A stretch of DNA of 52,534 bases from a virus: the IMG/VR virus record IMGVR_UViG_3300034072_000552, positions 1 to 52,534 of that record. One strand, written 5' to 3'. Of the stretch, positions 3,290 to 32,287 are shown one piece after another. Positions within the stretch are counted from its first letter, which is position 1, and every line of letters starts with the position of its first letter. The position numbers were made by a program, and so were the translations under genes. Under the pieces are notes generated by a model, which saw only the letters and a list, made by a program, of their open reading frames with translations, made no database searches and was not told the origin of the DNA.

Positions 3290-3300
3290 CGTAAAATTTT

Positions 3301-3330
3301 GGCCCGGGGCGAATTATTTTGCCCCGGGCC
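3301..3330. terminator. Strong hairpin after nrdJ
   Basis: GGCCCGGGGC (3301-3310) pairs perfectly with GCCCCGGGCC (3321-3330) across a 10-base AT-rich loop. Only a weak T-rich stretch (ACTTTACTTA) follows, so it may be a leaky terminator or an mRNA 3'-end stabiliser. It separates nrdJ from the next promoter. Confidence 0.6.
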
Positions 3331-3332
3331 AC

Positions 3333-3372
3333 TTTACTTATGCGGCGATTTGTTTTAAGTTGTTCTTATCCC
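3333..3372 (+). promoter_or_regulatory. Predicted promoter with TTATCCCC element at +1
   Basis: TTTACT (3333-3338), 17 bases, TAAGTT (3356-3361), then TTATCCCC (3365-3372) over the predicted start. The stretch from the -10 hexamer to the leader AGAAATGGAGCA is nearly the same as that before 19335, so the two genes are probably controlled together. Confidence 0.55.
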
Positions 3373-3405
3373 CGGTACAGACCGGCCTAGAAATGGAGCA
3401 ACAAA

Positions 3406-4392
3406 ATGGTTAGCACTTTCGTAAAAGGTTCCACGACTTTCATCTGCTCTTGCTGTGGCCACAACACGCGTTGGACCGGCGAGCAGGGTACTGATTCCCG
3501 GACTTGCCCCGTATGTTGGGACCTTGCTGGCTTCGAAAATGCTGAACAAGACGATCAGATGACCGAAGCCTATATTGAAGAAGTCCGCAGCCAGTTCAAG
3601 TACCTCAAAGCCAATCGCACCCCTGAGCAGTACGCAAAGGCCCTCCGGTCTTTCGATCTCATCGCTCATTACGTCACCGAAGAAAAGGAGAACACAGAAA
3701 TGACACAGTTCGTAATCATCAACATCGCTGATCTCAAGGTAGACTTCGCCTCCACGCCGGTCGGCAACGAAGGCTTCATTTGCGCTCAGATCGGCGACGA
3801 AGCCGAAGCCCAGCAGCTCTCCGAACTCACCGGCCCGCAGATGGTCGCACTTTATAACACGACTGCAAAGGAGTTGGACACCGGCATCGCCGAAGTCACG
3901 CGCTTCGCCACGAAGGAAGCAGGTGTCAAGCGCCTTTGGGCAAACCTGACCGACCTGGCTGAAGCCCGCAAGGAGAGACTCAAGGAAGTCGTCAAGAAGT
4001 CGATTGTTGAAACCGACACCAAAAACAAGTCGCCTGTACCTCCTTCGTCCATCAAGAAAGCTTCCCCGATTGCCCCCCGTCGCGGCACCGGCATCAATCT
4101 CCCGGCGATGAAGAAGGCGTATCCCTGCCGCGCCGGTTCCAAGCAGGCTATTCTGGTCGATATGCTTTCCCGTCCTCAGGGTGCGACTATGGGTGAGCTC
4201 CTGGAAGCTCTTTCCGGCGGCAAGACCCCCTGGAAGGAAGTCAGCGTCAAGTCCGGTATGAACTGGGATATGAACAAGATTAAGGGCTACGGCATCCGCA
4301 CTGCTAAGCGCGGCGAGGAAGATTGCTATCACCTCGTGCTCCCCGCCGGTTTGTTGGCCCCGATCCCGCACACGGTAAAGACGGGGGCTTGA
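3406..4392 (+). CDS. Zinc-ribbon / DUF3489-like protein with internal start
   Basis: A 328-residue protein of unknown function. The N terminus carries a zinc-ribbon pattern (CSCCGH near residue 15, then CPVCW), followed by a helical stretch. The last ~90 residues (GSKQAILVDMLSRPQGATM... through the W and K-rich helix) resemble DUF3489, a small winged-helix-like module in phage and plasmid proteins, so DNA binding is plausible. The leader AGAAATGGAG precedes ATG 3406. A full second copy of the translation signal, AGAAAAGGAG, lies inside the gene and precedes an in-frame ATG at 3700. The gene may therefore be a fusion of two genes, or may yield a second 230-residue product (MTQFVIINIADLKVDF...). 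Family assignment rests on pattern only. Confidence 0.7.
   Translation: MVSTFVKGSTTFICSCCGHNTRWTGEQGTDSRTCPVCWDLAGFENAEQDDQMTEAYIEEVRSQFKYLKANRTPEQYAKALRSFDLIAHYVTEEKENTEMTQFVIINIADLKVDFASTPVGNEGFICAQIGDEAEAQQLSELTGPQMVALYNTTAKELDTGIAEVTRFATKEAGVKRLWANLTDLAEARKERLKEVVKKSIVETDTKNKSPVPPSSIKKASPIAPRRGTGINLPAMKKAYPCRAGSKQAILVDMLSRPQGATMGELLEALSGGKTPWKEVSVKSGMNWDMNKIKGYGIRTAKRGEEDCYHLVLPAGLLAPIPHTVKTGA
3681..3702 (+). promoter_or_regulatory. Internal translation-initiation site inside the 3406 gene
   Basis: AGAAAAGGAG (3681-3690), nine bases, ATG 3700, in frame (codon 99) with the 3406 gene. It is the same signal that opens at least ten other genes here, so an in-frame short product is likely. 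Confidence 0.5.
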
Positions 4393-5428: not shown

Positions 5429-6239
5429 CGTCATCATAGTAGGCGGGGGCCTCTTCGGCTCCATCGCCGGGGCGGCGCTCCGGGACGCAGGAATGGACGT
5501 GCTGATCATTGACGATGGTCGCCCTCGCTCCGGGTCCCGCGCCGCCGGTTGCCTCATGAAGCCGTCCTGGCTCCAGAAGATGGGCAAGGACAACGTGGAG
5601 CAGTCCTTCAGGCTCCTTGACAGGCTGTACGGCCTTCGCACCGTCTCGCTCAAGGCGGGGCCGGTTACGGTGGGGGCGGAATGGATCAACCCTGACGAGG
5701 TGCTAAATGGTCGCCTCGTTGAATGTTTTCCATATCGGGTCGCAAAGGTCTCTTCCTTTCCCGGAGGAAATCGGGTTCGTCTTAATCCAGACCTAAAACC
5801 GATTGACGCAAAACACGTCATCGTCGCATGCGGCGCGTGGACCCGTCAGCTCATTCACGGCGTCCCGGTCGTCGGCAAGGTTGGCTTGAGCCTGCGTCTC
5901 TTCAAGGAAGTGGAGGACAACCGGATATCTGTTTGGGCTCCGTACAAGCAGCTTGTTCGGTTCTCTCAGGATGGCTTCCATTGGGCCGGGGACGGCACTG
6001 CTATCCTTGAGAAGAATTGGGACGGTCTCCGGGAAGAGCAATCTACTAAGCGCATATCCGATTTCGCCGGTCAAGGTGGCGGTGAGGTTCGGGTCGGCAT
6101 ACGTCCCTTCGCCCAGACAAGCGATCCGGCGGCGCTGGAAGAGGTTGCCCCGGGGCTCTGGAGCCTGACGGGCGGCGGCAAGAATGGAACCGCAGCCGCC
6201 GGATGGGCTGCTGCTAAATTGTTGGAGAGACTGACGTGA
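5421..6239 (+). CDS. FAD-dependent oxidoreductase (DAO-like), probable hypermodification flavoenzyme
   Basis: A 272-residue flavoprotein with the Rossmann motif GGGLFG at residues 8-13 (MRDVIIVGGGLFGS) and a C-terminal glycine-rich segment (SLTGGGKNGT) typical of D-amino-acid-oxidase/glycine-oxidase-like enzymes. In phages with hypermodified thymine, a flavin-dependent enzyme of this class acts on the amino acid attached to the base, cleaving glycyl-thymidine to 5-aminomethyl-dU. The downstream transferase, kinase and ThyA homologue make that role likely here. The ATG at 5421 overlaps the previous stop by eight bases; an upstream ATG at 5364 lies deep in the previous gene. The exact reaction is inferred. 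Confidence 0.82.
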   Translation: MRDVIIVGGGLFGSIAGAALRDAGMDVLIIDDGRPRSGSRAAGCLMKPSWLQKMGKDNVEQSFRLLDRLYGLRTVSLKAGPVTVGAEWINPDEVLNGRLVECFPYRVAKVSSFPGGNRVRLNPDLKPIDAKHVIVACGAWTRQLIHGVPVVGKVGLSLRLFKEVEDNRISVWAPYKQLVRFSQDGFHWAGDGTAILEKNWDGLREEQSTKRISDFAGQGGGEVRVGIRPFAQTSDPAALEEVAPGLWSLTGGGKNGTAAAGWAAAKLLERLT

Positions 6240-6466
6240 GCGAAAAGCACACGCGCATCCGCGTCAAGAGGACTGACGCAACCGGCTATTGGGGATATCT
6301 AGACTTTGGAGAGCTGACCCGGGAAGAAATGGTGAAGACGATCCGCGCCCGCGCTGATTGGCTTCGCAAGGAAGTCGCCGACATCGACGCGACCCGCGAC
6401 GAAGATTTTGAAGTGGACGTGGTGCGCGGTCGCTACGTTCAGAAACACATCAGGAGCGTACCATGA
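6236..6466 (+). CDS. Small hypothetical protein in hypermodification operon
   Basis: A 76-residue, charged protein (starts GTG; MSEKHTRIRVKRTDATGY...) with no family I recognise. GTGA overlap with the FAD gene stop and ATGA overlap with the transferase start show tight translational coupling, so it may be an accessory subunit of the base-modifying enzymes. Confidence 0.65.
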   Translation: MSEKHTRIRVKRTDATGYWGYLDFGELTREEMVKTIRARADWLRKEVADIDATRDEDFEVDVVRGRYVQKHIRSVP

Positions 6467-7260
6467 GGGACGTCAGTTTAGATAACCCTGTTGAGTGGGG
6501 CCGGCAGCTTATCACCACCAACGACCACGACCCGCTCTATGTCGGCCTGACGGAGTGGGACGTCAAGGGCTCGCGCCTCCGTCGCTTCATGCTTGCCTAC
6601 TGGTGTTGCTATTCGGTCGGCGCGAGCTGGTTTATCTCGCAGCAGTCGGGGTCCCGGTTCTGGGACACGCTCAAGACGGCGGCTGAGAACGTAGAGCCCG
6701 CTCCAATCGGGGGGCGTTGGCCCAGAGCACACGAGCGTCGGCACTGGCGGGGGTCGAAATGCGTGGACAGCGTCCTGTGGCTCCGTGAATCCTACCGCCA
6801 CCCGGAAGAAGCCGTTGTCAGCTTGGAGCGAGCCCGGCACCTCAGTGCTATGTCTGAGCTGATGGACTGGCCTCAGTTCGGCCCTTGGATCGCGTTCAAG
6901 GCCGCCGACATGTTAGAGCGCGTCTTGGGCGTCCCGGTTGAGTTTGAGGATAGCATCCTGACGATGTACAAGGACCCCAAAGAAGGCGCTGAGATGGCGG
7001 CTCCTCTTCTCGGGGTCTCTCATCCTCAAGAGGTTGCCGACCTGATGTGCCGCGCTTATCAGGATATATGGGCCCCGGGGATCGGCGGGGAAGCGGAACG
7101 CGCCTGTAACATCCAGGAGGTTGAGACGGTTTTGTGCAAATGGAAATCAGCCCGGAAGGGCCACTATTTCATCGGCAAGGACACTCAAGATCACCGCCGC
7201 GAGTTGACGGCTTGGGGAGCCCAAGACCTTCTCGCCGTTTACCCAACCGGCAAGGCTTGA
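6463..7260 (+). CDS. Amino acid:DNA transferase-like protein (ADDT / aGPT-Pplase2 family)
   Basis: A 265-residue protein matching the phage amino acid:DNA transferase family first predicted as alpha-glutamyl/putrescinyl-thymine pyrophosphorylase clade 2. Recognisable stretches are DPLYVGLTEW, LAYWCCYSVGAS, the basic block RAHERRHWRGSK and WPQFGPWIAFKAADMLERV. Family members displace pyrophosphate from 5-pyrophosphoryloxymethyl-dU in DNA and attach an amino acid (glycine in the Pseudomonas phage M6 system). ATG 6463 overlaps the previous stop (ATGA). The kinase that would make its substrate follows after a promoter. Assignment is from sequence pattern and context. Confidence 0.75.
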   Translation: MRDVSLDNPVEWGRQLITTNDHDPLYVGLTEWDVKGSRLRRFMLAYWCCYSVGASWFISQQSGSRFWDTLKTAAENVEPAPIGGRWPRAHERRHWRGSKCVDSVLWLRESYRHPEEAVVSLERARHLSAMSELMDWPQFGPWIAFKAADMLERVLGVPVEFEDSILTMYKDPKEGAEMAAPLLGVSHPQEVADLMCRAYQDIWAPGIGGEAERACNIQEVETVLCKWKSARKGHYFIGKDTQDHRRELTAWGAQDLLAVYPTGKA

Positions 7261-7285
7261 CTGTTATCCCCGGCGGGGATAAGGT
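7257..7285 (+). promoter_or_regulatory. Predicted promoter with palindromic TTATCCCC..GGGGATAA spacer
   Basis: TTGACT (7257-7262), 17 bases, TAAGGT (7280-7285); predicted +1 near 7292 and leader AGAAAAGGAG at 7294. The spacer contains TTATCCCC-GGC-GGGGATAA (7264-7282), an inverted repeat that runs into the -10 hexamer and is a likely operator. Confidence 0.65.
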
Positions 7286-7310
7286 CTGATTTCAGAAAAG
7301 GAGAACCAAC

Positions 7311-7919
7311 GTGATCATCAACATTCGTGGAACAAACGGGTCTGGTAAGACCCACCTTGCCCGTCAAATGATCGGCGACAATCCGAGCCCGGTTGATCTC
7401 AACAGCTACGACGCCCCGACCAAGAAGGACCCGCAGCGCCGCCTCCGGGTCGAAGGTTACGCTGGCAACGGCGTGGTGGCTATCGGGTCCTACCGTCAAG
7501 GCTGTGGCGGCATGGACACAATCCCGTCTTTCGCGATCCAACAGGGCGCTATACAATACGCTTTGGAACTGGGGTGTGCGGTTGAGCACGTCCTGTGCGA
7601 AGGGGTTCTGGCCTCCACCGTCGCCGGGAGCTGGCTTGAGTTCTTTCAGGACAAGAGCCGGATTCATCACGAGCAGGTCCTCATCGCCTATCTCGACACC
7701 CCGCTGGAGCTGTGCCTTGAGCGCATCCGGGCTCGCCAGATTGCGGCGAAGGGAGAGACCCGGGAAATCAAGGTCGATCTGGTGCGAGACAAGATCAAGG
7801 CGATCAACGCGACCCGTGCCAAGTTCGATGCTGCCGGCATCGACACCGTCAACCTGCGCCACGACCGGGCCTTTGAGGACCTCAAGGCTTACGTTGAGTT
7901 CAAGTCGGGGGAGGTGTGA
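7311..7919 (+). CDS. P-loop nucleotide/5-hmdU DNA kinase
   Basis: A 202-residue P-loop kinase starting at GTG 7311. Walker A is GTNGSGKTH (residues 7-15). The segment YGAxG-like VEGYAGNGVVAIGSYRQGCGG and the helix LELCLERIRARQ (LID-like arginines) are typical of the small phage kinases encoded with thymine-hypermodification genes. In characterised systems a kinase phosphorylates 5-hydroxymethyl-dU in DNA to give the pyrophosphoryl leaving group. Context (transferase upstream, HMUDK helical-domain protein and ThyA homologue downstream) supports that substrate, although a free nucleotide cannot be excluded. Confidence 0.78.
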   Translation: MIINIRGTNGSGKTHLARQMIGDNPSPVDLNSYDAPTKKDPQRRLRVEGYAGNGVVAIGSYRQGCGGMDTIPSFAIQQGAIQYALELGCAVEHVLCEGVLASTVAGSWLEFFQDKSRIHHEQVLIAYLDTPLELCLERIRARQIAAKGETREIKVDLVRDKIKAINATRAKFDAAGIDTVNLRHDRAFEDLKAYVEFKSGEV

Positions 7920-8209
7920 TGTTCAAGGCCGAAGACTTCAGCGCCAAGACCAATTCACAGGTTGCCAAGATCATTTTGCCGCTTGGCGACAAAGTCATCA
8001 AAATGATCTGCGATCTGTCAGAAGACCAGACCGTTATCGAATTGGCTGCTGTATCAGAAATGAGCCCGCTGACCATTGCGGAACGTTTGTTTTGTTCTGC
8101 GACCGGGTACGCTTTGTCAACCCGCCCCGGAGTTACCCAGCCGGAAAAAGCGGGGCACGCAAGCTGCTTCATGACCGGCTTGGGTTACGAGGTAGAAATC
8201 CATGGCTGA
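7919..8209 (+). CDS. Small hypothetical protein in hypermodification operon
   Basis: A 96-residue protein (MFKAEDFSAKTNSQV...) of unknown family. GGGGAGG precedes ATG 7919, which overlaps the kinase stop (TGATG); its 3' end overlaps the 8202 gene by eight bases. Lys/Ile-rich helical N terminus, then a mixed C-terminal half. Position suggests a partner of the kinase or helical-domain protein. Confidence 0.65.
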   Translation: MFKAEDFSAKTNSQVAKIILPLGDKVIKMICDLSEDQTVIELAAVSEMSPLTIAERLFCSATGYALSTRPGVTQPEKAGHASCFMTGLGYEVEIHG

Positions 8210-9179
8210 CCTCAACACAGAACCCCTCTGGAAATGGGTCAACGAGCGCCATGCGATCTATCTGCGCAAGGCGAAACGGGAGAACCCTGAAGCCTTCCTT
8301 CATCAACGCGACACCGGATTTGATCCATTTGGTTTGGGAGACCGACCTAGTGGAAGGTTGACTGAAGACGATATACTTGATGCGTTCCGCTTCTGTAACG
8401 TCTTCCGCGAGCTGGACCGGGTCACGAAGTGGATCAAGGAGCATATCCGGGAGCCCTACGCCGACCACCGGCACCTCTGGTTGATGCTCGCTATCGCCCG
8501 CTACATCAACTGGCCTGAGACGCTTCAATTTCTGAAGCAATCCGGCTACCCTTGGCCAGATTCATCGATCTTCAGCCCGTCAAATCTGGGACGGGCTCTT
8601 GATTGGTGGTCCAAGCAAGGCAAGAAGGTCTACACAGGCGCTTACATGATCCGCGCTGAAAGCAACCCGAAGGCGGAATGGTATAGCTGGACCAAGCAGC
8701 AGTACATCGCCCGGATTGTGATTGGGCGTCTGTGGGAGGATCGCCACGAGTGGGAAGCGATCCTTGAAGACCAACCGGAAGGCGGTCTGACCATGGAAGC
8801 CGTCTGGACCAGGTTCCAGCACCCCCGCTATATCGGTTGGGGACCGTTTATGGCCTATCAGGTCTGTGTTGATTTACGCCACACACATTACCTTCGTAAT
8901 GCGCCTGACATAAATACGTGGGCGGCGGTCGGCCCCGGCTCGCGGCGCGGCCTCAACCGTCTCGCTGGGCGTCCGGTCGATTTCAACCTGTCCCAGGAGC
9001 AGGGGCTGGACGAGATGCGGGCGATCTACGAAGCCCAGGACGCATACCGGGCTCCGTGGTTGCCCCGTGTCGATCTGAGCGACATTCAGAATTGTCTCTG
9101 CGAGACTGACAAATATCTCCGGGTAAAACTCGGGGAGGGAAGGCCCAGAGCGCAATATGTTCCGGGTCGCGGTTACTAA
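8202..9179 (+). CDS. HMUDK helical-domain / DNA base hypermodification protein
   Basis: A 325-residue protein of the family annotated as 5-hmdU DNA kinase helical domain (aGPT-Pplase1-like) or putative DNA base hypermodification protein. Signature stretches: WKWVNERHAIYLRK, AFRFCNVFRELDRVTKWI, LMLAIARYINWPETL, YIGWGPFMAYQVCVDL and GPGSRRGLNRL, which echoes helix-hairpin-helix DNA glycosylases. It is probably the DNA-engaging partner of the P-loop kinase at 7311, directing phosphorylation of 5-hydroxymethyl-dU in duplex DNA. Which of the two proteins holds the catalytic site I cannot tell from sequence. ATG 8202. Confidence 0.75.
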   Translation: MADLNTEPLWKWVNERHAIYLRKAKRENPEAFLHQRDTGFDPFGLGDRPSGRLTEDDILDAFRFCNVFRELDRVTKWIKEHIREPYADHRHLWLMLAIARYINWPETLQFLKQSGYPWPDSSIFSPSNLGRALDWWSKQGKKVYTGAYMIRAESNPKAEWYSWTKQQYIARIVIGRLWEDRHEWEAILEDQPEGGLTMEAVWTRFQHPRYIGWGPFMAYQVCVDLRHTHYLRNAPDINTWAAVGPGSRRGLNRLAGRPVDFNLSQEQGLDEMRAIYEAQDAYRAPWLPRVDLSDIQNCLCETDKYLRVKLGEGRPRAQYVPGRGY

Positions 9180-9205
9180 AACAACAAGTCCAAGGAGGAC
9201 AATAA

Positions 9206-10306
9206 GTGATCACTATTCAAGCACGCAACGTCAACGACGCCCTCTGGGCCGGGGCTTCGATGATCCGGGAGCACGGCGTTGTCGGCGAAAGCCGTAACGG
9301 CCCGGTTCTGCGGGCTCCCTGCCCCGTCACGACCGTCTATCAGGCCCCTATGGAACGGGTGATGTTCCACCCGGAGCGCGACGCAAACCCGTTCTTCCAT
9401 CTGGTCGAAGCCCTGTGGATGATCGCCGGTCGTAACGACCTCAAGACGCTGACACCTTACGTCTCGAATATGACCAACTTCAGCGATGACGGCGGCAAGA
9501 CACAGCCCGGAGCCTATGGCCACCGGTGGCGGGAGCATTTCCAGCTTGATCAGCTGAATTGGGCTGTGCGTCGCCTGAAGGCCGATCCGAATGACCGGCG
9601 CGTTGTCATCCAGATGTACGACGCCGAAGTGGACCAGTACGCAGCTGACAATGGCGGCAAGGACATACCGTGTAACCTGATGGCCTTGCCGGCTATCAAC
9701 GTCTACGGCTCGCTGGACCTGACGGTGTTCAACCGGTCCAATGATATGGTCTGGGGAGCCTACGGCGCCAACGCGGTTCACTTCTCTGTGCTTCAGGAGT
9801 ATCTGGCGGCTCAGATTGGCGTTCCGGTCGGCACCTACTTCCAGGTATCGAACAATTTCCATGCCTACTTGTCCACGCTCGGGAAGGCCGGTATGGATTG
9901 GCCTTGGGGCAAGTTTGCCCTCGGCGAAGTCGCCGGCACGTTCCGGCCCGACCACTACGGCGCAGGCCGGGTGAAGCCCTTCCCTATGTTCGAGCCCGGT
10001 GAAGACCCGCTCTACATCCTCAACGATATCCAGATGTTTCTGGACGATCCGGCCCGGGTCGACATCCGGTCCCCGTTCCTGCGCAAGATCGCCTGCCCGA
10101 TGGTGATGGCGCATCGCGCCTACAAGGCCGGGAAGAATACAACCGGTATCCAGGACGCCCTGGAAATACTGGAACAGATGCCAGCCGACAACGACTGGAG
10201 AGCGGGGGCCACGCTATGGCTCAAGAACCGGGCGGCGGCGCGCTCCCGGGCAGCAGACGATGGAGTGTCGCATGACGCTGCAAATCAAGATGGAGCTTCT
10301 GGCTGA
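9206..10306 (+). CDS. Thymidylate synthase-like dUMP hydroxymethylase
   Basis: A 366-residue ThyA-fold enzyme, starting at GTG with AAGGAGG upstream. The catalytic Cys is C156 (DIPCNL), the phosphate-binding Arg pair is R131-R132 (NDRRVV), and RSNDMVW plus the following GAN (N189) correspond to the nucleotide-binding RSxD...PFN segment of ThyA. Asn at this position favours dUMP; dCMP hydroxymethylases carry Asp. With hypermodification genes immediately upstream, it most likely makes 5-hydroxymethyl-dUMP rather than dTMP, but the sequence alone does not exclude a true thymidylate synthase. The C-terminal 30 residues are low complexity. Confidence 0.8.
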   Translation: MITIQARNVNDALWAGASMIREHGVVGESRNGPVLRAPCPVTTVYQAPMERVMFHPERDANPFFHLVEALWMIAGRNDLKTLTPYVSNMTNFSDDGGKTQPGAYGHRWREHFQLDQLNWAVRRLKADPNDRRVVIQMYDAEVDQYAADNGGKDIPCNLMALPAINVYGSLDLTVFNRSNDMVWGAYGANAVHFSVLQEYLAAQIGVPVGTYFQVSNNFHAYLSTLGKAGMDWPWGKFALGEVAGTFRPDHYGAGRVKPFPMFEPGEDPLYILNDIQMFLDDPARVDIRSPFLRKIACPMVMAHRAYKAGKNTTGIQDALEILEQMPADNDWRAGATLWLKNRAAARSRAADDGVSHDAANQDGASG

Positions 10307-17082: not shown

Positions 17083-17871
17083 ATGGCACCTTCTATTAAA
17101 CTCACAGACAAAGCGCACCAGAGGGTGCGTGAATTCATCGAAGCGGGTTTTGCGGTCGGCGAAGACCGTCAACTTGCTTCCGACCTCCAAGCCCTGCTTC
17201 AGCTCCACGACGAGGTTCACGAAGTCAAGGGCAAGGAGACGGCCCAGGGGCGCGTCAACCGTCTGACGCAGGCACTGAACTGCGCTCTGACCCTGACGCC
17301 TGATCTGCGGATCGCGTCTATTGGGACGCGGGTTGAAGTGCGACCCGCTAAGGGTCACTATTACGACCCGGGTCTGGATCACGTCGCCGAATTTGCGGAG
17401 GCGTTCGGGGCTTACGTGAGCCCTGAGACGGTCGTGCCGGATTACGGACCCGTGGCGGCTGTACACCTTCGGGGGTATTGCTCGGTAGCTAAAGCTCTGG
17501 GCGAAGACCTCAAGGCTTACGCGGCTGAATGCCTTGAGTACAACGATGAGGGCGGGGCTCTTGCTTTGATCCGCCTTCAGCTCTGCCAGGAGGAGCTTGC
17601 TGAGCTGGCGCAGGGCATTATCAACCGGGATATCGTGGAGTGCCTTGACGCTCTGACTGATATGTCCTACGTCTGTGACGGCACCTACCTGACCCTGGGT
17701 CTCGGCCACTACAAGCTCGCGGCCTATGCGGAGGTTCACGCCTCCAATATGTCGAAGCTGGGGCCGGACGGCAAGCCGATATTTTGCGACGCGGGCCGGG
17801 TCGTCAAGGGGCCGAACTATGTGAAACCGGACCTGAGCGGCGTGCTCGGGATGAACGAGGAGGAACGGTGA
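17083..17871 (+). CDS. MazG-like NTP pyrophosphohydrolase
   Basis: A 262-residue protein. Its C-terminal half carries the all-alpha NTP pyrophosphatase pattern: CQEELAELAQGI, then ECLDALTDMSYV (metal-binding E/D residues), and the family tail EVHASNMSKLGPDGKP ending in KGPNYVKPDL. Such enzymes hydrolyse (d)NTPs to monophosphates. Here it could remove dUTP or dTTP so that hmdUTP is used. The N-terminal ~120 residues are of unknown function. The leader AGAAAAGGAG fixes ATG 17083. Confidence 0.78.
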   Translation: MAPSIKLTDKAHQRVREFIEAGFAVGEDRQLASDLQALLQLHDEVHEVKGKETAQGRVNRLTQALNCALTLTPDLRIASIGTRVEVRPAKGHYYDPGLDHVAEFAEAFGAYVSPETVVPDYGPVAAVHLRGYCSVAKALGEDLKAYAAECLEYNDEGGALALIRLQLCQEELAELAQGIINRDIVECLDALTDMSYVCDGTYLTLGLGHYKLAAYAEVHASNMSKLGPDGKPIFCDAGRVVKGPNYVKPDLSGVLGMNEEER

Positions 17872-22941: not shown

Positions 22942-23174
22942 AGACCGTTGAGGAGATTGCCGAGGAATTGAGGGGTACGTCTCAAACGCTTTGTCTGGTT
23001 CTTGAGCACAACGACATGGACGGTGCAGATAATGACCCGGCATTTTGCGCTTCCCTAGACGCTCTTGTTTTCTGTTGCGAGCAATGCGAATGGTGGTGTG
23101 AGCAATCCGAGATGGGCGCTCGTGATGATGAACGCTGGATATGCGAAGAATGTACAGCTGAGGAAAATGAATAG
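22938..23174 (+). CDS. Small Cys-rich (zinc-finger-like) protein
   Basis: A 78-residue acidic protein starting at GTG 22938. CCEQCEWWCEQ and CEECTAEE provide two Cys pairs that could form a zinc ribbon. It is inserted between the two terminase subunits with four-base overlap upstream and one-base overlap downstream, so it may assist packaging. No family recognised. Confidence 0.62.
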   Translation: MKTVEEIAEELRGTSQTLCLVLEHNDMDGADNDPAFCASLDALVFCCEQCEWWCEQSEMGARDDERWICEECTAEENE

Positions 23175-24874
23175 TGAACGCCCACGTAGCCGACCTCAAG
23201 GCTGAAACCGCAGCTTGGCCCCCGAACTACACCAAGTTGTTCATGTGGCGTCAGAAGCAGCTGCTCATGTTCCGGTCGAAGCCGGAGATGATCAAGGCCG
23301 CGAAGCTCTACTACACGACCCACCCAGTTGAGTTCATCAACGACTGGGTTGACACCTACGACCCCCGTAACGCGGGCGTGCCGGGGAAGATCACCCGCAT
23401 GCCCTTCATCATGTTCCCGCGTCAGGTCGATCTGACCAACTTCCTTTACGCATGCCTCCACGGCGAAGCGGACGGCTTGATTGAGAAGTGTCGTGACGCC
23501 GGGGCAACGTGGCTATCCGTCGCCGTCTCGGTCCACCTTTGGTTGTTCTATGACGGCATCTCCATCGGCTGGGGCTCCCGCAAGGAGCAGCTGGTGGATA
23601 AGATCGGGGACATGGACAGCATCTTCGAAAAGATCAGGGCTGTCATCCGCAATCTGCCGCCGGATTTCCTCCCTTTGGGCTTCAGTGAGAAGGACCACAT
23701 GACCTACATGAGGGTGCTCAACCCCGAGAACGGGGCGAGCATCACCGGGGAGGCAGGCAACAGCATCGGGCGCGGCGGTCGTAAGCGTATTTACTTCAAG
23801 GACGAAAGCGCGCACTACGAGCGGCCTGACCTGATCGAAGCCGCCTTGGGCGATAACACCCGCGTTCAGATCGATATCAGCTCAGTCAACGGCACAGGCA
23901 ACGTGTTTCACCGCCGCCGGGAGAACGGCGTGGATTGGGAGCCGGGGCAACCGGTCGTCAAGGGCAAGGCCAACGTCTTCGTGTTTGACTGGCGTCATCA
24001 CCCCGAGAAGACGCAAGAGTGGTATGATGAACGCCGACAAAAGGCTGAGGATGAGGGCCTGCTTCACATCTTCGCCCAAGAGGTGGACCGCGACTACAAC
24101 AGCTCCGTCGAAGGCATCATCATCCCGGCGGCTTGGGTTCAGGCCGCTGTAGACGCTCACAAGAAGCTCCAATTCACCGACGATGGCAAGTGGATGGCGG
24201 GGCTAGACGTAGCGGACGGCGGCGGGGACCGGAATGCCCTAGCCCAGCGCAAGGGCGTCGTGCTGAAGGGCGTCAAGGTCTGGGGGCAGGTTGATACCGG
24301 CGTCACGGCGCGGCGCGCTATCCAGTATCTTCATCGCCCCAACGAGACCTCGCTGATGTATGACTGCATCGGGGTCGGCGCTGGGTGTAAGGCTGAGTTC
24401 AACCGCCTCCGGGGTCTGGAGGATAGCGGCGAGACCAACACCACCAAGACGCAGTGGCCGACCGGCTTGCGGGTAGAGCCCTGGAACGCCGGGTTGCCGC
24501 CGCTCTACCCCGAGAAGCGGTTGATCAAGGGTGACAAGGGTTCGCCCCTCATCAAGGATCATTACCTCAATCTCAAGGCCCAAGCTTGGTGGGAGCTGCG
24601 TGCCCGGTTTTGGAAGACATGGCGAGCGATCAACGAGGGCCTGGACATCGACACTGAGGACTTGATCAGCATCGATAGCGCAAGCTTCTCCACGACCGAA
24701 TTGGCGCAGCTCATCAAAGAGTTGAGTCAGGCCACTTCCTCCTTGAGCCCGGGTCGGCTAAAGTTGATGGTGAACAAGACACCGGAGGGGACGCGATCCC
24801 CGAACATGGCAGACGCGGTTGTGATGGCTTACTGGCCGGTCATGAGCCGCTATTCGCTCGACAACGTGGGATGA
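23174..24874 (+). CDS. terL: Terminase large subunit
   Basis: A 566-residue packaging motor. The ATPase domain shows a Walker A-like CRDAGATW (residues 106-113) and Walker B IYFKDES (D210, catalytic E211). The nuclease domain has GLDVADGGGD (D345) and the C-terminal D547 (MADAVVM) of the RNase H-like fold. It cuts concatemers and translocates DNA into the prohead. GTG start. The type resembles terminases of phages that package by headful, consistent with the circular assembly. Confidence 0.92.
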   Translation: MNAHVADLKAETAAWPPNYTKLFMWRQKQLLMFRSKPEMIKAAKLYYTTHPVEFINDWVDTYDPRNAGVPGKITRMPFIMFPRQVDLTNFLYACLHGEADGLIEKCRDAGATWLSVAVSVHLWLFYDGISIGWGSRKEQLVDKIGDMDSIFEKIRAVIRNLPPDFLPLGFSEKDHMTYMRVLNPENGASITGEAGNSIGRGGRKRIYFKDESAHYERPDLIEAALGDNTRVQIDISSVNGTGNVFHRRRENGVDWEPGQPVVKGKANVFVFDWRHHPEKTQEWYDERRQKAEDEGLLHIFAQEVDRDYNSSVEGIIIPAAWVQAAVDAHKKLQFTDDGKWMAGLDVADGGGDRNALAQRKGVVLKGVKVWGQVDTGVTARRAIQYLHRPNETSLMYDCIGVGAGCKAEFNRLRGLEDSGETNTTKTQWPTGLRVEPWNAGLPPLYPEKRLIKGDKGSPLIKDHYLNLKAQAWWELRARFWKTWRAINEGLDIDTEDLISIDSASFSTTELAQLIKELSQATSSLSPGRLKLMVNKTPEGTRSPNMADAVVMAYWPVMSRYSLDNVG

Positions 24875-24878
24875 CCGC

Positions 24879-26729
24879 ATGACAACCCTTCCGACCTCTG
24901 ACAGCCTTCGCTCACTCATAACCGGGATGGGTGATCCGAATGTCGACAAGTCCGCAGCCGTGTTCTACGGAAACCTGATCCTCAGCGACAACCAGCTTCA
25001 CAACGCCTACCGCAACACGTGGTTGGCGAAGAAGATTGTCAATATCCCGGCGCTGGACGCTCTGCGCAAGTGGAGGGATTGGCAGGCTGAGCAGACCCAG
25101 ATCACGCTGATCGAAAAGGAGGAGCAGAGGCTTGGCCTCAAGCAGAAGCTGCTCCAGTGTAAGACGTTGGCCCGTCTTTGGGGCGGCGCGGTTATCTTCA
25201 TCGGCGACGGCACGAACGCTTCCCAGCCCTTCTATCCCGAGAAGGTAGGGAAGGGGGGCCTGAAGTATCTCACCGTGATGAGCCGCCGGGAAATGATCGC
25301 CAATGAGCTTCAGATCGATCCCGAAAGCGAGCAATACGGCTGGCCGATTGACTACACCATCAGCAACGGACGGCAGTTCACGACCATTCACCCCTCCCGC
25401 TTGGTGATCCAGATCGGCGATCCGCTCCCCGATCCGTGGAACCCTATCGGCTCGGTCACTTCGACCGGCTGGGGCGATAGCGTGCTTCAGTCCGTCTACA
25501 CTGCCGTGTCGAATGCCGATAGCACAGCAGCGAACGTCGCAAGTCTTGTATTCGAAGCCAACGTGGACGTGTACAAGATCGATGAGCTCATGGAGCACAT
25601 GTCCTCCGCTCCGTATCGCCAAAAGCTGCTTGATCGCTTCTCGCTCGCCAATATCGGCAAGTCGGTCAGCAAGGCCCTCATCGTGGACAAGGACGAGGAG
25701 TATGACCGCAAGCAGATCAACTTCTCCAATCTCCCAGACGTCATTCAGCAGTTCTTGATACTGGTGTCAGGTGCGTCGGATATCCCACTCACCCGGCTCA
25801 TCGGTCAGTCGCCCTCAGGTCTGAACTCGACCGGCGAGCACGACATGAAGAACTACTTCGACCGGATCACATCAGCCCAGACGCTCGAAATCCAGCCTGC
25901 CCTGTTCAAGCTCGATGAGGCCCTCATCCGGTCTGCTTTGGGCTCGCGTCCCGATGAGATTTTCTACTCTTGGGCTCCTCTGGAGCAGATGAGCGAGAAG
26001 GAGAAGGCCGAAATCGGCAAGATCAAGGTGGAGGCCGCTGCCGCGATTGTCAACACCGGGCTCTTCATGCAGGAGGAGCTTCGCAAGGTTGTCGGCAACC
26101 AGCTCGTGGAAGATGGCTTTTACCCCGGCTTGGCCGACCTCCTCAAGGAGAATGGAGACAAGCTGCCTGAATTCGACCTTGAACGCCGGTCGCAGGAAGC
26201 CTCAGTCAAGGCTCTTGAGAACCCCCAGCCCAAGACGCCGGTCACTGACGCTACCCCGCGCACTCTCTACCTGCGCCGTGATGTCGTCAACGCCGACGAG
26301 ATCATCAAATGGTACAAGGATCAGGGTGTTCAGGACGTTTACGCCCCGGAGAGCATGCACGTCACTATCGTCTACACCAAGACGCCGGTTGACTGGATGA
26401 AGATGGGCCAGCCTTGGGAAGCGCGCCTTGAAATACCGGACGGAGGCCCAAGGATCAACGAGAAGTTTGGTGATCAGGGCGACGTTCTGGTGCTGTTGTT
26501 CGCCTCCAACGAGCTTCAGTGGCGTCATATGTGCGCCAAGGAGCTTGGGGCAACGAGCGATTATCCAGAATACCAGCCGCACATCTCAATCAGCCTGCGC
26601 GGGGGCGAGCTTGACCTGATCAACCTCAAGCCGTGGCAGGGACCGATTGTCCTGGGTCCCGAAATCTATGAGGAAATCGCAACCGGCGACTGGCGCGAGA
26701 AGGTGACGACCGATGGCAGTGATGCGTAA
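24879..26729 (+). CDS. Portal (DUF1073) fused to Acb1-like 2H phosphoesterase
   Basis: A 616-residue protein. Residues ~1-440 are a DUF1073 portal (NAYRNTWLAKKIVNIPALD, RLWGGAVIFIGDG, PLTRLIGQSPSGLNSTGEHD), the dodecameric ring through which DNA enters the head. Residues ~465-605 are a 2H phosphoesterase with both catalytic motifs: H494-V-T496 (MHVTIVY) and H568-I-S570 (QPHISIS). This domain matches T4 Acb1, which cleaves cyclic di- and trinucleotides and so disarms CBASS defence; databases already name some DUF1073 proteins as Acb1 family. The linker at ~440-462 is rich in Glu, Pro and Thr. Whether the domain stays on the portal or is cleaved off cannot be seen. Confidence 0.85.
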   Translation: MTTLPTSDSLRSLITGMGDPNVDKSAAVFYGNLILSDNQLHNAYRNTWLAKKIVNIPALDALRKWRDWQAEQTQITLIEKEEQRLGLKQKLLQCKTLARLWGGAVIFIGDGTNASQPFYPEKVGKGGLKYLTVMSRREMIANELQIDPESEQYGWPIDYTISNGRQFTTIHPSRLVIQIGDPLPDPWNPIGSVTSTGWGDSVLQSVYTAVSNADSTAANVASLVFEANVDVYKIDELMEHMSSAPYRQKLLDRFSLANIGKSVSKALIVDKDEEYDRKQINFSNLPDVIQQFLILVSGASDIPLTRLIGQSPSGLNSTGEHDMKNYFDRITSAQTLEIQPALFKLDEALIRSALGSRPDEIFYSWAPLEQMSEKEKAEIGKIKVEAAAAIVNTGLFMQEELRKVVGNQLVEDGFYPGLADLLKENGDKLPEFDLERRSQEASVKALENPQPKTPVTDATPRTLYLRRDVVNADEIIKWYKDQGVQDVYAPESMHVTIVYTKTPVDWMKMGQPWEARLEIPDGGPRINEKFGDQGDVLVLLFASNELQWRHMCAKELGATSDYPEYQPHISISLRGGELDLINLKPWQGPIVLGPEIYEEIATGDWREKVTTDGSDA

Positions 26730-27322: not shown

Positions 27323-28699
27323 ATGGTTTCACGAGCTATTCTCAATAACTGGCCTTTGGTGCCGCCGTCCGGGTTCAACATGTTGTTGAACGGCTTCAGT
27401 CGCCTGAAAGCTAAGCTTGCCGTTGGAGCGAATGCCGTTATCTTCGTTAATGGGGACAGCACGGCGTATTCCGAATACGGACCTTATTACAAGTTTGCCG
27501 TGATGCTCGGCAACTTGTACAACGCCACTGTGATCGTTCATCGCTGGGCTGAGTGGACCGGTGCTGCGGCAAACGGCCCAAAGGAATATAGCGCGCCGGT
27601 CGTGCTACGTGCTGGTAGTTCTCAGGTTGTTGAGTTGTTTCTTGCTGCTCTCCCGGGGCAGGTCATCGGCTGTATGTTTGAATCGTCTCGCAAGCAGAAG
27701 GCGATTGACGCTATCCCGACCCCAGACGTGGCGATCACTCACCACGGTCATAACATGATCTCGTTCGAAACGCCGGGTTCTGACATTTCTATCGGTCGCG
27801 GTCTGTTTTGGGCCGGTATCGGGATGATCAGCTGGCAGTGGGAGGGCGTGGCGCAAGTAATCACGACCCAGAACCCGCTGAGAGACGACACGACATACAG
27901 CAAGTTGTACAATTCGATCACGGGTGTTGCTGCTGTATTTCCGTCTATCACGATGGTTGATACCAACAAGAAGTTTACTGACGCAAATAAAAATGCAAGT
28001 CTTTACAGGGATAACGTTCACCCCTCAGACACATCTGGAAATTCGTCCGGGGCTCAGCTTCAAGCTGACGCCCTCATGGTCGAATTTAATCGTGCCCGGG
28101 TAGGAGAATTTTCAACTGAAAGCTGGATGGAGCTTCCGATTGGCTCTAATCTGTTTGTTAACGGAGACTTGTCGAATTGGACAGGTTCCACTCCGGCAAA
28201 CTTCTCGAATGTTGCTGGCAACGTGACTTCGAAGGATTTCGACCCCGCCAACATATTCCCCGGTTCAGGGGCCTCGTATTCTGCGAAAGTCGCCCCACCG
28301 GCGGCTAACGGTCAATTTGCGAAGTTGAGCAACTCATTCGACGCCACTGAAAGAGCGTCTATGTCTGGCAAGTCTGTGACGGCAATCATGTTGGTTAAAG
28401 CTAACCCCCTTCAGAAGATGCCAGTTACCTCTTTCGTGACGCTATCGCTAGGAAGCCTGAGAACGTTCACAGGCGGTGGTCTTTTGTGGGATCAGCAATC
28501 GGGGAAGAACGTTGGCGGTTGGATGCCAATCGTTTACGCGGGATTACCTTGCGACGCTAACAACTCTGACGCCAATTCAAAGTTTGCGCTGAGCCCAGCG
28601 TTCGGGGGCGCGGCTCCTCCAACTTTGGACCCGGCGTGGCTTCAGAGGGCGGTCATCATTGAAGGCTCGGTTCCTCGCCTCGGTTTGGTTCGTCCTTGA
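27323..28699 (+). CDS. SGNH/GDSL-type hydrolase in capsid gene block
   Basis: A 458-residue protein. The N-terminal ~240 residues are an SGNH hydrolase: nucleophile block VNGDSTAYS (S46), HHGHN as block III, and DNVH (D230, H233) as the Asp-His pair. The remaining ~215 residues are beta-rich (LFVNGDLSNWTGSTPANF...), like carbohydrate-binding jelly rolls. Such enzymes remove acetyl or acyl groups from polysaccharides. Being encoded amid head genes and after a putative head-fibre gene, it may decorate the capsid and process host capsule or exopolysaccharide. No other enzyme of this kind is in the tail region. Confidence 0.78.
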   Translation: MVSRAILNNWPLVPPSGFNMLLNGFSRLKAKLAVGANAVIFVNGDSTAYSEYGPYYKFAVMLGNLYNATVIVHRWAEWTGAAANGPKEYSAPVVLRAGSSQVVELFLAALPGQVIGCMFESSRKQKAIDAIPTPDVAITHHGHNMISFETPGSDISIGRGLFWAGIGMISWQWEGVAQVITTQNPLRDDTTYSKLYNSITGVAAVFPSITMVDTNKKFTDANKNASLYRDNVHPSDTSGNSSGAQLQADALMVEFNRARVGEFSTESWMELPIGSNLFVNGDLSNWTGSTPANFSNVAGNVTSKDFDPANIFPGSGASYSAKVAPPAANGQFAKLSNSFDATERASMSGKSVTAIMLVKANPLQKMPVTSFVTLSLGSLRTFTGGGLLWDQQSGKNVGGWMPIVYAGLPCDANNSDANSKFALSPAFGGAAPPTLDPAWLQRAVIIEGSVPRLGLVRP

Positions 28700-28715
28700 A
28701 ATTGAAAGTCTTCGA

Positions 28716-29528
28716 ATGTTCAGCTGCGACGCGATCCAACCACAGTCCTACCGACTGGCCAGCATGGTCCGGGGTCGTCGCCCCGGGTCCGTGGCGTTGG
28801 TCCCCGTCATTCCGGTCCCTCTGGGCTTTGAACGGAGCTACCTTGCCCAATTGCGGGCTCTTGAGCAGACCATAGCCCAAGGCATCCGGGATATCATCGT
28901 TCCGAAATATGAGACCAAGTTGGTGACCGACGCCGACGAAGACAGCTTCAACGCCTTCCGTCTTCTTGTTGGGGCTATGGTTCGCAGCGTCTCGCAGCAG
29001 GTCGGCGAGCTTTTGAAGCTGGAAGGCCGTCGCCACACCAAGGCGTGGATGGGATCGGCGCGGCGCGCTTTCAGCGTAGACCTGAGCAGCGTTATCGCGG
29101 ATGAGGACCTTGAGTCATACCTTGAAGCGGCGGCTCTGCGCAACGCCTCCCTGATCCGGGGCTTGGCAGACGATATCATGAAGCGGGTCGCCACCGAGAC
29201 GACTAACGCTCTGATTGGCGGCAAGTCGGCGGCAGAGCTCAAGACGATCCTAAAGCGCCAGCTTGAAATTGGGGACGCCCGGGCTCGCCTCATAGCCTGG
29301 GATCAGACGGGCAAGCTCACGGCTGATCTCAACCGCATTCGACATGAACAGGCCGGGATTGACGAATACATCTGGCGCACCAGTCAAGATGAGCGTGTGC
29401 GCCCCCGGCACCGCGATTTGGAAGGCAAGCAATACAAATACGGGGAGCCGACCGGCGCAGAGGAGGGATTGCCCCCTGGGCAACCCATTCAGTGTCGTTG
29501 TATTGCTCAAGGCGTAGTGAGGTTTTGA
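28716..29528 (+). CDS. MuF-like minor head (morphogenesis) protein
   Basis: A 270-residue protein whose C terminus carries the Mu gpF-like signature: YIWRTSQDERVRPRHRDLEG and LPPGQPIQCRCIAQ. It binds the portal and is ejected or placed at the head vertex in related phages. I chose ATG 28716; a TTG at 28659 overlapping the hydrolase gene is possible. The N-terminal half is helical. Confidence 0.82.
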   Translation: MFSCDAIQPQSYRLASMVRGRRPGSVALVPVIPVPLGFERSYLAQLRALEQTIAQGIRDIIVPKYETKLVTDADEDSFNAFRLLVGAMVRSVSQQVGELLKLEGRRHTKAWMGSARRAFSVDLSSVIADEDLESYLEAAALRNASLIRGLADDIMKRVATETTNALIGGKSAAELKTILKRQLEIGDARARLIAWDQTGKLTADLNRIRHEQAGIDEYIWRTSQDERVRPRHRDLEGKQYKYGEPTGAEEGLPPGQPIQCRCIAQGVVRF

Positions 29529-29707
29529 TGGCTTGTAGATGCGCAGAACGCAAAGCAGCAATTGTTGAAGCAGTCAAGAGGCCATCAACAGCCTTGACCG
29601 CCGCCACGTTTGTCGCTAAAACAGGAGCCCAAGACGTTGTCGCCGTTACCGCTCAAGGAACGAAACGTGTTTTGGATTACCTCCAGAGAAGGGGGCTGAG
29701 GAGCTGA
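29528..29707 (+). CDS. Small hypothetical protein
   Basis: A 59-residue protein (MACRCAERKAAIVEAVKRPS...) with an N-terminal CRC and a helical, Ala/Val-rich body. It starts one base inside the MuF stop and ends at the first base of the protease/scaffold gene. Function unknown. Confidence 0.58.
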   Translation: MACRCAERKAAIVEAVKRPSTALTAATFVAKTGAQDVVAVTAQGTKRVLDYLQRRGLRS

Positions 29708-30873
29708 TGCAGTTTACGGACTCAGTTGCGATTTTAGGCACGCGCCGCCGGGAAGACGGCTATCTGGTTGCTGACGCACGGGTCGCCCGCACCGGCATTC
29801 AACAGTATCTCGGCAGTGAGCTGGGCCGCCCCGATCTCAAGGTTGTTGACGTCTATCGCCCCGCTGAGGAAGTCTTCAGCGAAGACACCATGAAGTCCTT
29901 CGCCTTCCGACCCATCACTGACGACCATCCGCCCGTCGCCGTTACGGCTGACAACTGGAAGGATTACGCCCGGGGCAACACGGACGGCGAAATCAAGCGT
30001 GACGGCGAGTTTGTCCGCGTCGGCCTAATGGTGGCTGACGGCGCTTCAATTCAGAAGGTGGAAGGCAACAAGCGAGAGCTGAGCGCCGGTTACACCTGCG
30101 ATTTGGTCTGGGAAGACGGCGTGACGCCGGAGGGCAAGCCCTATCAGGCCAAGCAAACCAAAATCAGAGCCAACCATGTCGCTATTGTTCAACGCGGTCG
30201 TGCTGGTTCGGATGTACGCATTGGAGACAGTGCGTCTCACTGGGGCACAGCCCCGATCATCGCGCAATACAAGGAGACACCCATGGGTACGCGCAATGTG
30301 ATGGTGGATGGGCTTTCCGTGGAAACCACGGATCAGGGTGCCCAGGCCATTGAAAAGCTGATCGGCGACCGCAAGCGGCTCGAAGACCAGCTGAACGAAA
30401 AGGACGGCAAGAACAAGAAGGACATGGAGGCCAAGGATGCGGCGATTTCCGCTCTTCAAGCCAAGCTTGACGATGCCACGTCCAAGGTTCTCACGTCTGA
30501 CGCTATCAGCAAGCTGGTGGCTGACCGCGTTGCCCTGGAAGCGAAGGCGGCGAAGATCACCCCGGACGTGAAGCCCGCCGGTCTTTCTGACGCTGACCTC
30601 AAGACGGCAGTTGTCAAGGCCAAGCTCGGCGACAAGCTCCCGTCTGAACGGATCGGCGATCAGGCGTACATTGACGCCCGCTTCGATATCCTTGCCGATG
30701 AGTCCGCTCAGACGCAGGACACCTTCCGTCAGGCCCGTCTGGGCGACGGTCGCCCGCATTCTCCCGCCGCCGGCAGTCCCATCGCCATGAACGACGCCCA
30801 GCGCGCTCGTCAGCAGGCGTTTGACGAGCTGCTCCACTTCGACCAGACCGGCGTTGAACGCGCCGCCAACTGA
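29707..30873 (+). CDS. DUF2213 prohead protease with C-terminal scaffold
   Basis: A 388-residue protein. The N-terminal ~185 residues match DUF2213 (RRREDGYLVADARVARTG, FRPITDDHPPVAVT, KRELSAGYTCDL, RANHVAIVQRGRAGSDVRIG), a herpes-protease-like prohead protease: H of DDHPP, S of LSAGY and H of NHVAIV form a plausible triad. The rest is a coiled coil (KLIGDRKRLEDQLNEKDGKN) typical of scaffolds. An internal AAGGAG precedes an in-frame ATG at 30283 that would make the scaffold alone (about 196 residues), as with lambda C/Nu3. Confidence 0.82.
   Translation: MQFTDSVAILGTRRREDGYLVADARVARTGIQQYLGSELGRPDLKVVDVYRPAEEVFSEDTMKSFAFRPITDDHPPVAVTADNWKDYARGNTDGEIKRDGEFVRVGLMVADGASIQKVEGNKRELSAGYTCDLVWEDGVTPEGKPYQAKQTKIRANHVAIVQRGRAGSDVRIGDSASHWGTAPIIAQYKETPMGTRNVMVDGLSVETTDQGAQAIEKLIGDRKRLEDQLNEKDGKNKKDMEAKDAAISALQAKLDDATSKVLTSDAISKLVADRVALEAKAAKITPDVKPAGLSDADLKTAVVKAKLGDKLPSERIGDQAYIDARFDILADESAQTQDTFRQARLGDGRPHSPAAGSPIAMNDAQRARQQAFDELLHFDQTGVERAAN
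30271..30285 (+). promoter_or_regulatory. Internal translation start for scaffold
   Basis: AAGGAG (30271-30276), six bases, ATG 30283, in frame at codon 193 of the DUF2213 gene, exactly where the protease domain ends and the coiled coil begins. Confidence 0.6.
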
Positions 30874-31348: not shown

Positions 31349-32287
31349 ATGTTCCAGCAGAACCAGCTTCAGATCGGCGATGCGATGCAGGCCAACCTTG
31401 GCTTCGTTGAATCGCAGACCGCCCACGTCGAAGCGGGCGTGTATCGCACCCGCTTCCCGGGCATCCGCTATCCGGGTCTGATCCCGGTTGACTACTCGGC
31501 CCCCGAGTGGATCAAAACAATCACCTACTACAGCATGGACATCAGCGGTCGCGCTGACTGGATCGCCGACCGCTCCAGCGATATCCCGGTTGTGGGCACC
31601 CGTCTGGCGCAGGATGAAACTGCGATCCAGATGGCGGGTATTGGCTATGATTACGGCCTTGAAGAGGTCAATCAGGCCCAGATGCTTGGCATGAACCTTC
31701 CCGGCGAAAAGGCCGCTGCGGCTCGTCTCATCTATGAGCGCACCGTGGACAATATCGCCTTCACCGGCGATACTGAAAAGGGCTGGAAGGGTCTCTATAA
31801 CAACACGTCAGTCACGGCAGTTGCCGCCGGATTTGATTGGGACACGGCCACGGAAGACCAGATTTTGCAGACTGTCAACGAGCTTCTGGGCGGGGTCTTC
31901 ACGGCCACCAACGAGATTGCCATGGCTGACACGCTGCTGCTGCCTTCTCTCAAGCTCCAGCAGATCGCTTCCAAGCGTCTGGGCGACGGCAACGGCTCGT
32001 TGACCATCCTCCAGTTCCTCCAGCAGGCAAACGTCTACACGGCGGAAACCGGCCAGCAGCTCCGTATTCGCGGCGCACGCGGCCTGAACACGGCAGGTGC
32101 CGGCGGCACAGCCCGCATGGTGGCCTACCGCAACAGCCCGGAAGTGCTCAAGATGCACATTCCGATGCGTCACCGGTTCCTCCCGGTCCAGGTTGTCGGC
32201 CTGACCTACAAGGTCCCCGGCATCTTCCGTCTGGGTCCGCTCGACATTCGACTGCCCAAGGAAGTGCGTTACAGCGACGGCATCTGA
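31349..32287 (+). CDS. Major capsid protein (DUF2184)
   Basis: A 312-residue protein matching the DUF2184 family of HK97-fold capsid proteins: PVDYSAPEWIKTITYYSMDI, GRADWIADRSSDIP, DYGLEEVNQAQMLG, FTGDTEKGWKGLYN and the C-terminal HIPMRHRFLPVQ. It forms the icosahedral shell. GGAG precedes ATG 31349. A hairpin at 32316-32337 follows, as often seen after capsid genes. Confidence 0.88.
   Translation: MFQQNQLQIGDAMQANLGFVESQTAHVEAGVYRTRFPGIRYPGLIPVDYSAPEWIKTITYYSMDISGRADWIADRSSDIPVVGTRLAQDETAIQMAGIGYDYGLEEVNQAQMLGMNLPGEKAAAARLIYERTVDNIAFTGDTEKGWKGLYNNTSVTAVAAGFDWDTATEDQILQTVNELLGGVFTATNEIAMADTLLLPSLKLQQIASKRLGDGNGSLTILQFLQQANVYTAETGQQLRIRGARGLNTAGAGGTARMVAYRNSPEVLKMHIPMRHRFLPVQVVGLTYKVPGIFRLGPLDIRLPKEVRYSDGI

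Follow-up and report, generated by a model that had tools for sequence, protein, structure and literature searches.

A viral portal protein with a C-terminal Acb1-type domain, a putative anti-CBASS enzyme encoded among the late head genes

The window, the whole 52,534-nucleotide stretch of viral DNA that was analyzed (IMG/VR record IMGVR_UViG_3300034072_000552), contains at positions 24879-26729 of the plus strand an open reading frame (ORF) that starts with ATG and encodes a 616-amino-acid portal-Acb1 fusion protein. The portal domain (residues 39-387, positions 24993-26039) matches Phage_portal_3 (DUF1073, PF06381) in hmmscan with an E-value of 1.5e-104, and the ORF also scores 269 bits against TIGR01555, the HI1409 portal family, for which the cut-off is 196. 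The Acb1 2H phosphoesterase domain (residues 461-607, positions 26259-26699) matches PF23474 with an E-value of 1.1e-34 and 119.7 bits (cut-off 27) and covers positions 1-143 of the 144 in that profile. Both Pfam matches are far above chance, and they confirm the DUF1073 portal with a C-terminal 2H domain that a first-pass annotation of this DNA had described. Both 2H motifs lie precisely at the places that this annotation gave, H494-V-T496 at positions 26358-26366 and H568-I-S570 at positions 26580-26588; the domain, which it had drawn from residue 465 to 616, is C-terminal as claimed but starts at about residue 461. The match to PHROG 146 (phrog_146, 'portal protein') extends over residues 6-607, which makes the fusion an integral part of that PHROG family.

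The fusion gene is located in the late head operon, which agrees with the late production of the fused enzyme that had been proposed. Directly upstream and on the same strand is the terminase large subunit gene (23174-24874); this ORF has no significant Pfam match and is assigned by synteny and DNA similarity with the annotated terL genes of phages RHph_I65, RHph_I72, RHph_TM26 and Pam3. Downstream, also on the plus strand, are the genes for a MuF head morphogenesis protein (28659-29528; PF04233, E-value 4.2e-17), a DUF2213 prohead protease-scaffold protein (29707-30873; PF09979, E-value 9.8e-57) and the major capsid protein (31349-32287; PF09950, E-value 3.5e-76). The DUF2213 protein is a candidate protease for clipping the linker between the portal and Acb1 domains. 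Residues 9-167 of its model match the T4 gp21 capsid protease (Z 10.3, 2.7 Å over 129 residues), the next structural matches are herpesvirus capsid proteases, and long scaffold-like helices are present from residue 209 on. Residues H74, S126 and H157 are invariant in the alignment of this protein, which would fit a serine protease without proving one.

The possibility that Acb1 is translated separately, with its own start codon inside the fusion gene, was considered and, after a scan for start codons upstream of the domain, rejected as a general mechanism. In the 45 codons before the Acb1 domain of the window protein, the sole in-frame start is a TTG 43 codons upstream, which has no Shine-Dalgarno-like site, and only 32 of 112 homologues have an upstream start with such a site.

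The AlphaFold2 model of the full-length window protein, built from 17 sequences, has a separate folded domain at residues 461-610 (pLDDT about 82), which follows a disordered linker (residues 427-459, positions 26157-26255) with pLDDT values below 50. Structural matches were obtained with Foldseek and VIA-align 2. The Acb1 part, taken from the full-length model and trimmed by the aligner, superimposes on the FBB1 Acb1-3'3'-cGAMP complex (7t27) with a Z score of 16.2 and 2.1 Å over 136 of 140 residues at 31% identity; thus, structure prediction finds the Acb1-like fold that the first-pass annotation had expected. H494/T496 and H568/S570 align to H44/T46 and H113/T115 of T4 gp57B. Among the fused homologues that were retrieved without the motif as a query, all 35 unique ones have both catalytic motifs intact. 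The first motif is invariant in 27 of 27 and in 105 of 105 unique fused domains, the latter figure being partly circular because the motif served as the search pattern for some of the retrievals, which the set of 35 omits. In the second motif of these two sets, the histidine is invariant and the last residue is always threonine or serine.

The nucleobases bound by Acb1 are stacked by Y12, W74, F107 and W147, and E141 contacts the adenine (PMC9117128). Four of these positions, Y12, F107, W147 and E141, correspond in the alignment to Y464, Y562, W605 and E598 of the window protein, while the W74 position is neither clearly alignable in the window nor clearly conserved across the fused domains. 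In addition, about a third of the fused members have another residue in place of E141, and about a quarter lack the C-terminal lid tryptophan (the W147 position); this variation would suggest that the substrates may differ among members. As judged by alignment, the window domain has an intact catalytic tetrad and appears to keep most of the pocket residues. The free Acb1 proteins of T4 (gp57B) and FBB1 (7t26/7t27) resemble it in the fold, the HxT/HxT tetrad and most of the base-contact positions at about 30-36% identity, although S570 of the window replaces T115 of T4 Acb1. They also differ in setting: the T4 and FBB1 enzymes are free proteins of about 150 amino acids, with the T4 gene between gp57A and ipI, whereas the Acb1 of the window is tethered to a portal.

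We consider it fairly probable, on the basis of the sequence and the model, that the window domain works as an Acb1 that is expressed with the late head genes and is active while the host cell assembles phage. The domain would be an Acb1-type, metal-independent cyclic-oligonucleotide hydrolase held on a flexible linker of the portal and produced along with the late head genes, and as portals and proheads accumulate, it would degrade cyclic di- and trinucleotides of the CBASS type inside the infected cell. Packaging would not depend on the portal C-terminus, which would be a socket that accepts one anti-host enzyme or another. The anti-CBASS role first proposed for the domain stands as its likeliest use, although we infer the enzymatic activity, the substrate, the target system and the timing of action. 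Portal C-termini generally face the capsid interior, and so the Acb1 domain would be enclosed as the prohead forms, which counts against this explanation. A counterpoint to the CBASS reading is the breadth of the 2H superfamily, whose enzymes have several RNA and nucleotide substrates. If the domain is active, an essential head protein of the phage would carry an anti-CBASS enzyme, whose dose would track head production and which simple gene deletion could not remove.

What becomes of the domain in the virion can be approached through Pseudanabaena phage Pam3, whose virion portal (8hds) matches the portal part of the window protein with a Z score of 25.2 and 58% identity. The Pam3 protein (ON014755 gp03), deposited and annotated as a portal, is a 621-residue homologue end to end that is 58% identical including the Acb1 domain, and the gene order is similar. 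However, 442 of the 621 residues are modelled in 8hds and the alignment covers residues 29-432 with the Acb1 part outside; therefore, the Acb1 part is either mobile or absent in the Pam3 virion. Likewise, the C-terminal extension of the phage Mu portal (gp29) is not in the virion, which lacks the last 124 residues, a loss that the authors attribute to cleavage by protease I (PMC11915804). In view of the Pam3 and Mu portals, the twelve copies of the enzyme per virion that had been suggested for the window phage are unproven.

These two portals bear on another explanation, which we regard as possible but rather unlikely, namely that the prohead protease clips the linker and the freed Acb1 stays in the capsid, is ejected with the DNA and disarms nucleotide-signalling immunity as infection starts. 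Virion delivery of 2H-portal and 2H-MuF fusions is a published proposal (PMC9503650, in its treatment of these fusions). The unmodelled Acb1 domain of Pam3, the shortened Mu portal, the disordered linker and the gp21-like protease-scaffold gene 3 kb downstream of the fusion would all be consistent with clipping; however, a flexible domain would be missing from a symmetric cryo-EM model just as well, and ejection of the Acb1 domain is itself a proposal. The linkers also contain [LI]xE triplets, which we take to be a T4 gp21-like cleavage motif, in 41 of 54 cases against a shuffled mean of 20.7. This enrichment is weakened by the relatedness of the linkers, which are not independent observations, and the Acb1-less portal of phage RHph_N28_2 retains the same LxE motif; consequently, we rejected the triplet as proof of clipping and keep it as a lead only.

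It is improbable, in our judgment, that the domain is an RNase or RNA-end-processing enzyme or a hydrolase of other nucleotides, such as 2'-5' oligoadenylate-like molecules or cyclic phosphate ends. Of the two functions put forward in 2017 (PMC5512222, in its account of the 2H fusions), one was an activity of this kind, and the breadth of the 2H superfamily, a weak 2_5_RNA_ligase2 match in some relatives and the coexistence with PBECR-type nucleases would favor it. However, Acb1 is by far the best match in both family and fold, ahead of the RNA-processing 2H proteins, and the Acb1-type pocket aromatics are present in the window protein.

The distribution of the fusion displays a pattern of wide inheritance with several separate losses. 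Among 50,697 phage records, 34 matched over at least 80% of the protein, and these phages have Rhizobium, Sinorhizobium, Aminobacter, Pseudomonas and cyanobacteria as hosts. Many further matches are present in viral contigs and in bacterial genomes, the named ones being mostly Alphaproteobacteria; with free and divergent forms counted, an Acb1 match is present in 8 of the 397 genomes of Bosea's order. When the window protein is compared with near relatives (L079-L082), dN/dS is 0.09-0.12 in the Acb1 part and 0.14-0.20 in the portal part, with dS near saturation, and the Acb1 part is under purifying selection. The fusion is widely inherited across a tree of 147 portals, on which the fused label needs seven changes; about five of these are losses within the fused clade, once the Yong-M3-232 artefact described below and the deep split to the distant portals are set aside. 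No Acb1 match is present in the genomes of the complete phages RHph_N28_2, Kintu, CUB19 and Silvergun, whose portals are related. RHph_N28_2 offers the clearest example of loss. The Rhizobium phages RHph_N28_2 (L038:2974-6821) and RHph_TM3_3_3 (L029:4974-6870) are close, and their portals adjoin in the tree. RHph_TM3_3_3 has a portal-Acb1 fusion, whereas in the same interval RHph_N28_2 has a shortened portal that has lost the Acb1 part and, between the portal and DUF2213 genes, a small ORF for a PBECR3-type nuclease, all within flanking DNA that is 86-87% identical. In two contigs, portal, Acb1 and PBECR3 are joined in one chain (L012, and also L025 with a PBECR3 score below the cut-off). The Acb1 domain is therefore accessory, and the portal C-terminus behaves as a socket for exchangeable enzymes. 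This behavior speaks against a structural or packaging role, in which the domain would act on nucleic acid ends or stabilize the portal with no part in defense; such a role, which the first-pass annotation had also raised, is very improbable despite the placement of the domain in the portal and its conservation over a broad clade, since complete phages manage with related portals that lack it, RHph_N28_2 replaces it while the flanks stay intact, and a purely structural part would not need the preserved tetrad and base-stacking residues.

Two other reading frames deserve mention. The apparently split portal and Acb1 genes of Synechococcus phage Yong-M3-232 (L030:1301-2200, OM868076) were rejected as a natural split, as comparison with Ssp-JY40 (L034), which is otherwise 99-100% identical there, indicates that a tandem duplication of about 130 bases breaks the frame; the duplication is possibly an assembly fault. 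In another locus (L145:1069-4527), the portal-Acb1 frame is 1,153 codons long from stop to stop and has about 360 residues past Acb1 with no Pfam match.

Acb1 is also found on head proteins other than the portal. In Bosea vaviloviae (L075, 5908-8154), the portal has no Acb1 and the domain sits instead on the N-terminus of DUF2213; L170 (3610-4878) and L171 share this arrangement, and L167 (1354-3003) has a divergent 2H form of it. In L110 (2848-3891), Acb1 precedes a Peptidase_S78_2 (XkdF-like) domain, and in six loci (L219, L210, L214, L216, L201 and L231), a NUDIX domain occupies the slot on the DUF2213 N-terminus that Acb1 has elsewhere. Thus, Acb1 recurs on the portal and on the protease-scaffold proteins of head assembly. 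According to Richmond-Buccola 2024 (as cited in PMC12409349), the prohead protease of phage Bas13 interacts with a CBASS sensor; if the two are linked, head proteins would be an apt place for Acb1. We suggest, tentatively, that Acb1 may be attached to the proteins that initiate the prohead and bring it to maturity because CBASS would be triggered by prohead assembly and its protease. Synthesis of the hydrolase would then keep pace with the trigger, the enzyme would be positioned at it, and some temperate phages might shield their induction from their own CBASS. The presence of Acb1 or NUDIX domains on prohead-protease proteins and of Acb1 on portals raises a testable question: are nucleotide-degrading enzymes placed where CBASS senses assembly?

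One prophage has both a CBASS-type cyclase and a portal-Acb1 fusion. In Mesorhizobium sp. YIM 152430 (L063), a CD-NTase cyclase and a 2TM (SLATT-like) effector are encoded on the minus strand (2704-4325) immediately upstream of terS and some 1.6 kb away from a portal-Acb1 gene on the opposite strand (5965-7803, plus). The cyclase-effector pair, which lies beside the head genes, is type I CBASS-like and is a single case. No CBASS cyclase was found in the window itself. CBASS-type (SMODS) cyclases are present in 38 of 397 genomes of Bosea's order, a host order, and in four of 25 genomes carrying Acb1 prophages; these two proportions are indistinguishable at this sample size, and there is no clear enrichment of CBASS in the Acb1-prophage genomes. 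The cyclases of the host order and the L063 prophage count in favor of an anti-CBASS role, and the lack of a clear enrichment counts against it.

The fusion is not new. Aravind's group (Iyer, Burroughs, Aravind and colleagues; 2017 and 2022) had already described fusions of 2H domains to portal and MuF proteins, and the passages of these papers on the 2H fusions propose that such fusions of polyvalent or virion proteins counter nucleotide-signalling immunity (PMC5512222, PMC9503650); the 2022 paper assumes in the same context that they are packaged and injected (PMC9503650). The counter-immunity idea has therefore been in print for about nine years. The window protein has the same architecture and the same predicted purpose as the published fusions; the window phage is not named in the accounts of 2H-portal fusions in these two papers. 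As the domain arrangement and its guessed use are already published, the window protein adds a member to a known kind. Both the portal and Acb1 domains have Pfam models, and the link of 2H-portal fusions to Acb1 is made explicit here through PF23474 and the fold match. In the open-licence literature, we found no published experimental test of a portal-Acb1 fusion.

Elsewhere in the window, positions 6463-10306 contain genes of a thymine hypermodification pathway, namely an amino acid:DNA transferase (ADDT), a 5-hmdU DNA kinase and a thymidylate-synthase-like protein, and the DNA of the window phage is probably modified. A PRA-PH/MazG-like nucleotide pyrophosphohydrolase is encoded at positions 17083-17871 and is possibly another counter-defense that acts at the nucleotide level.
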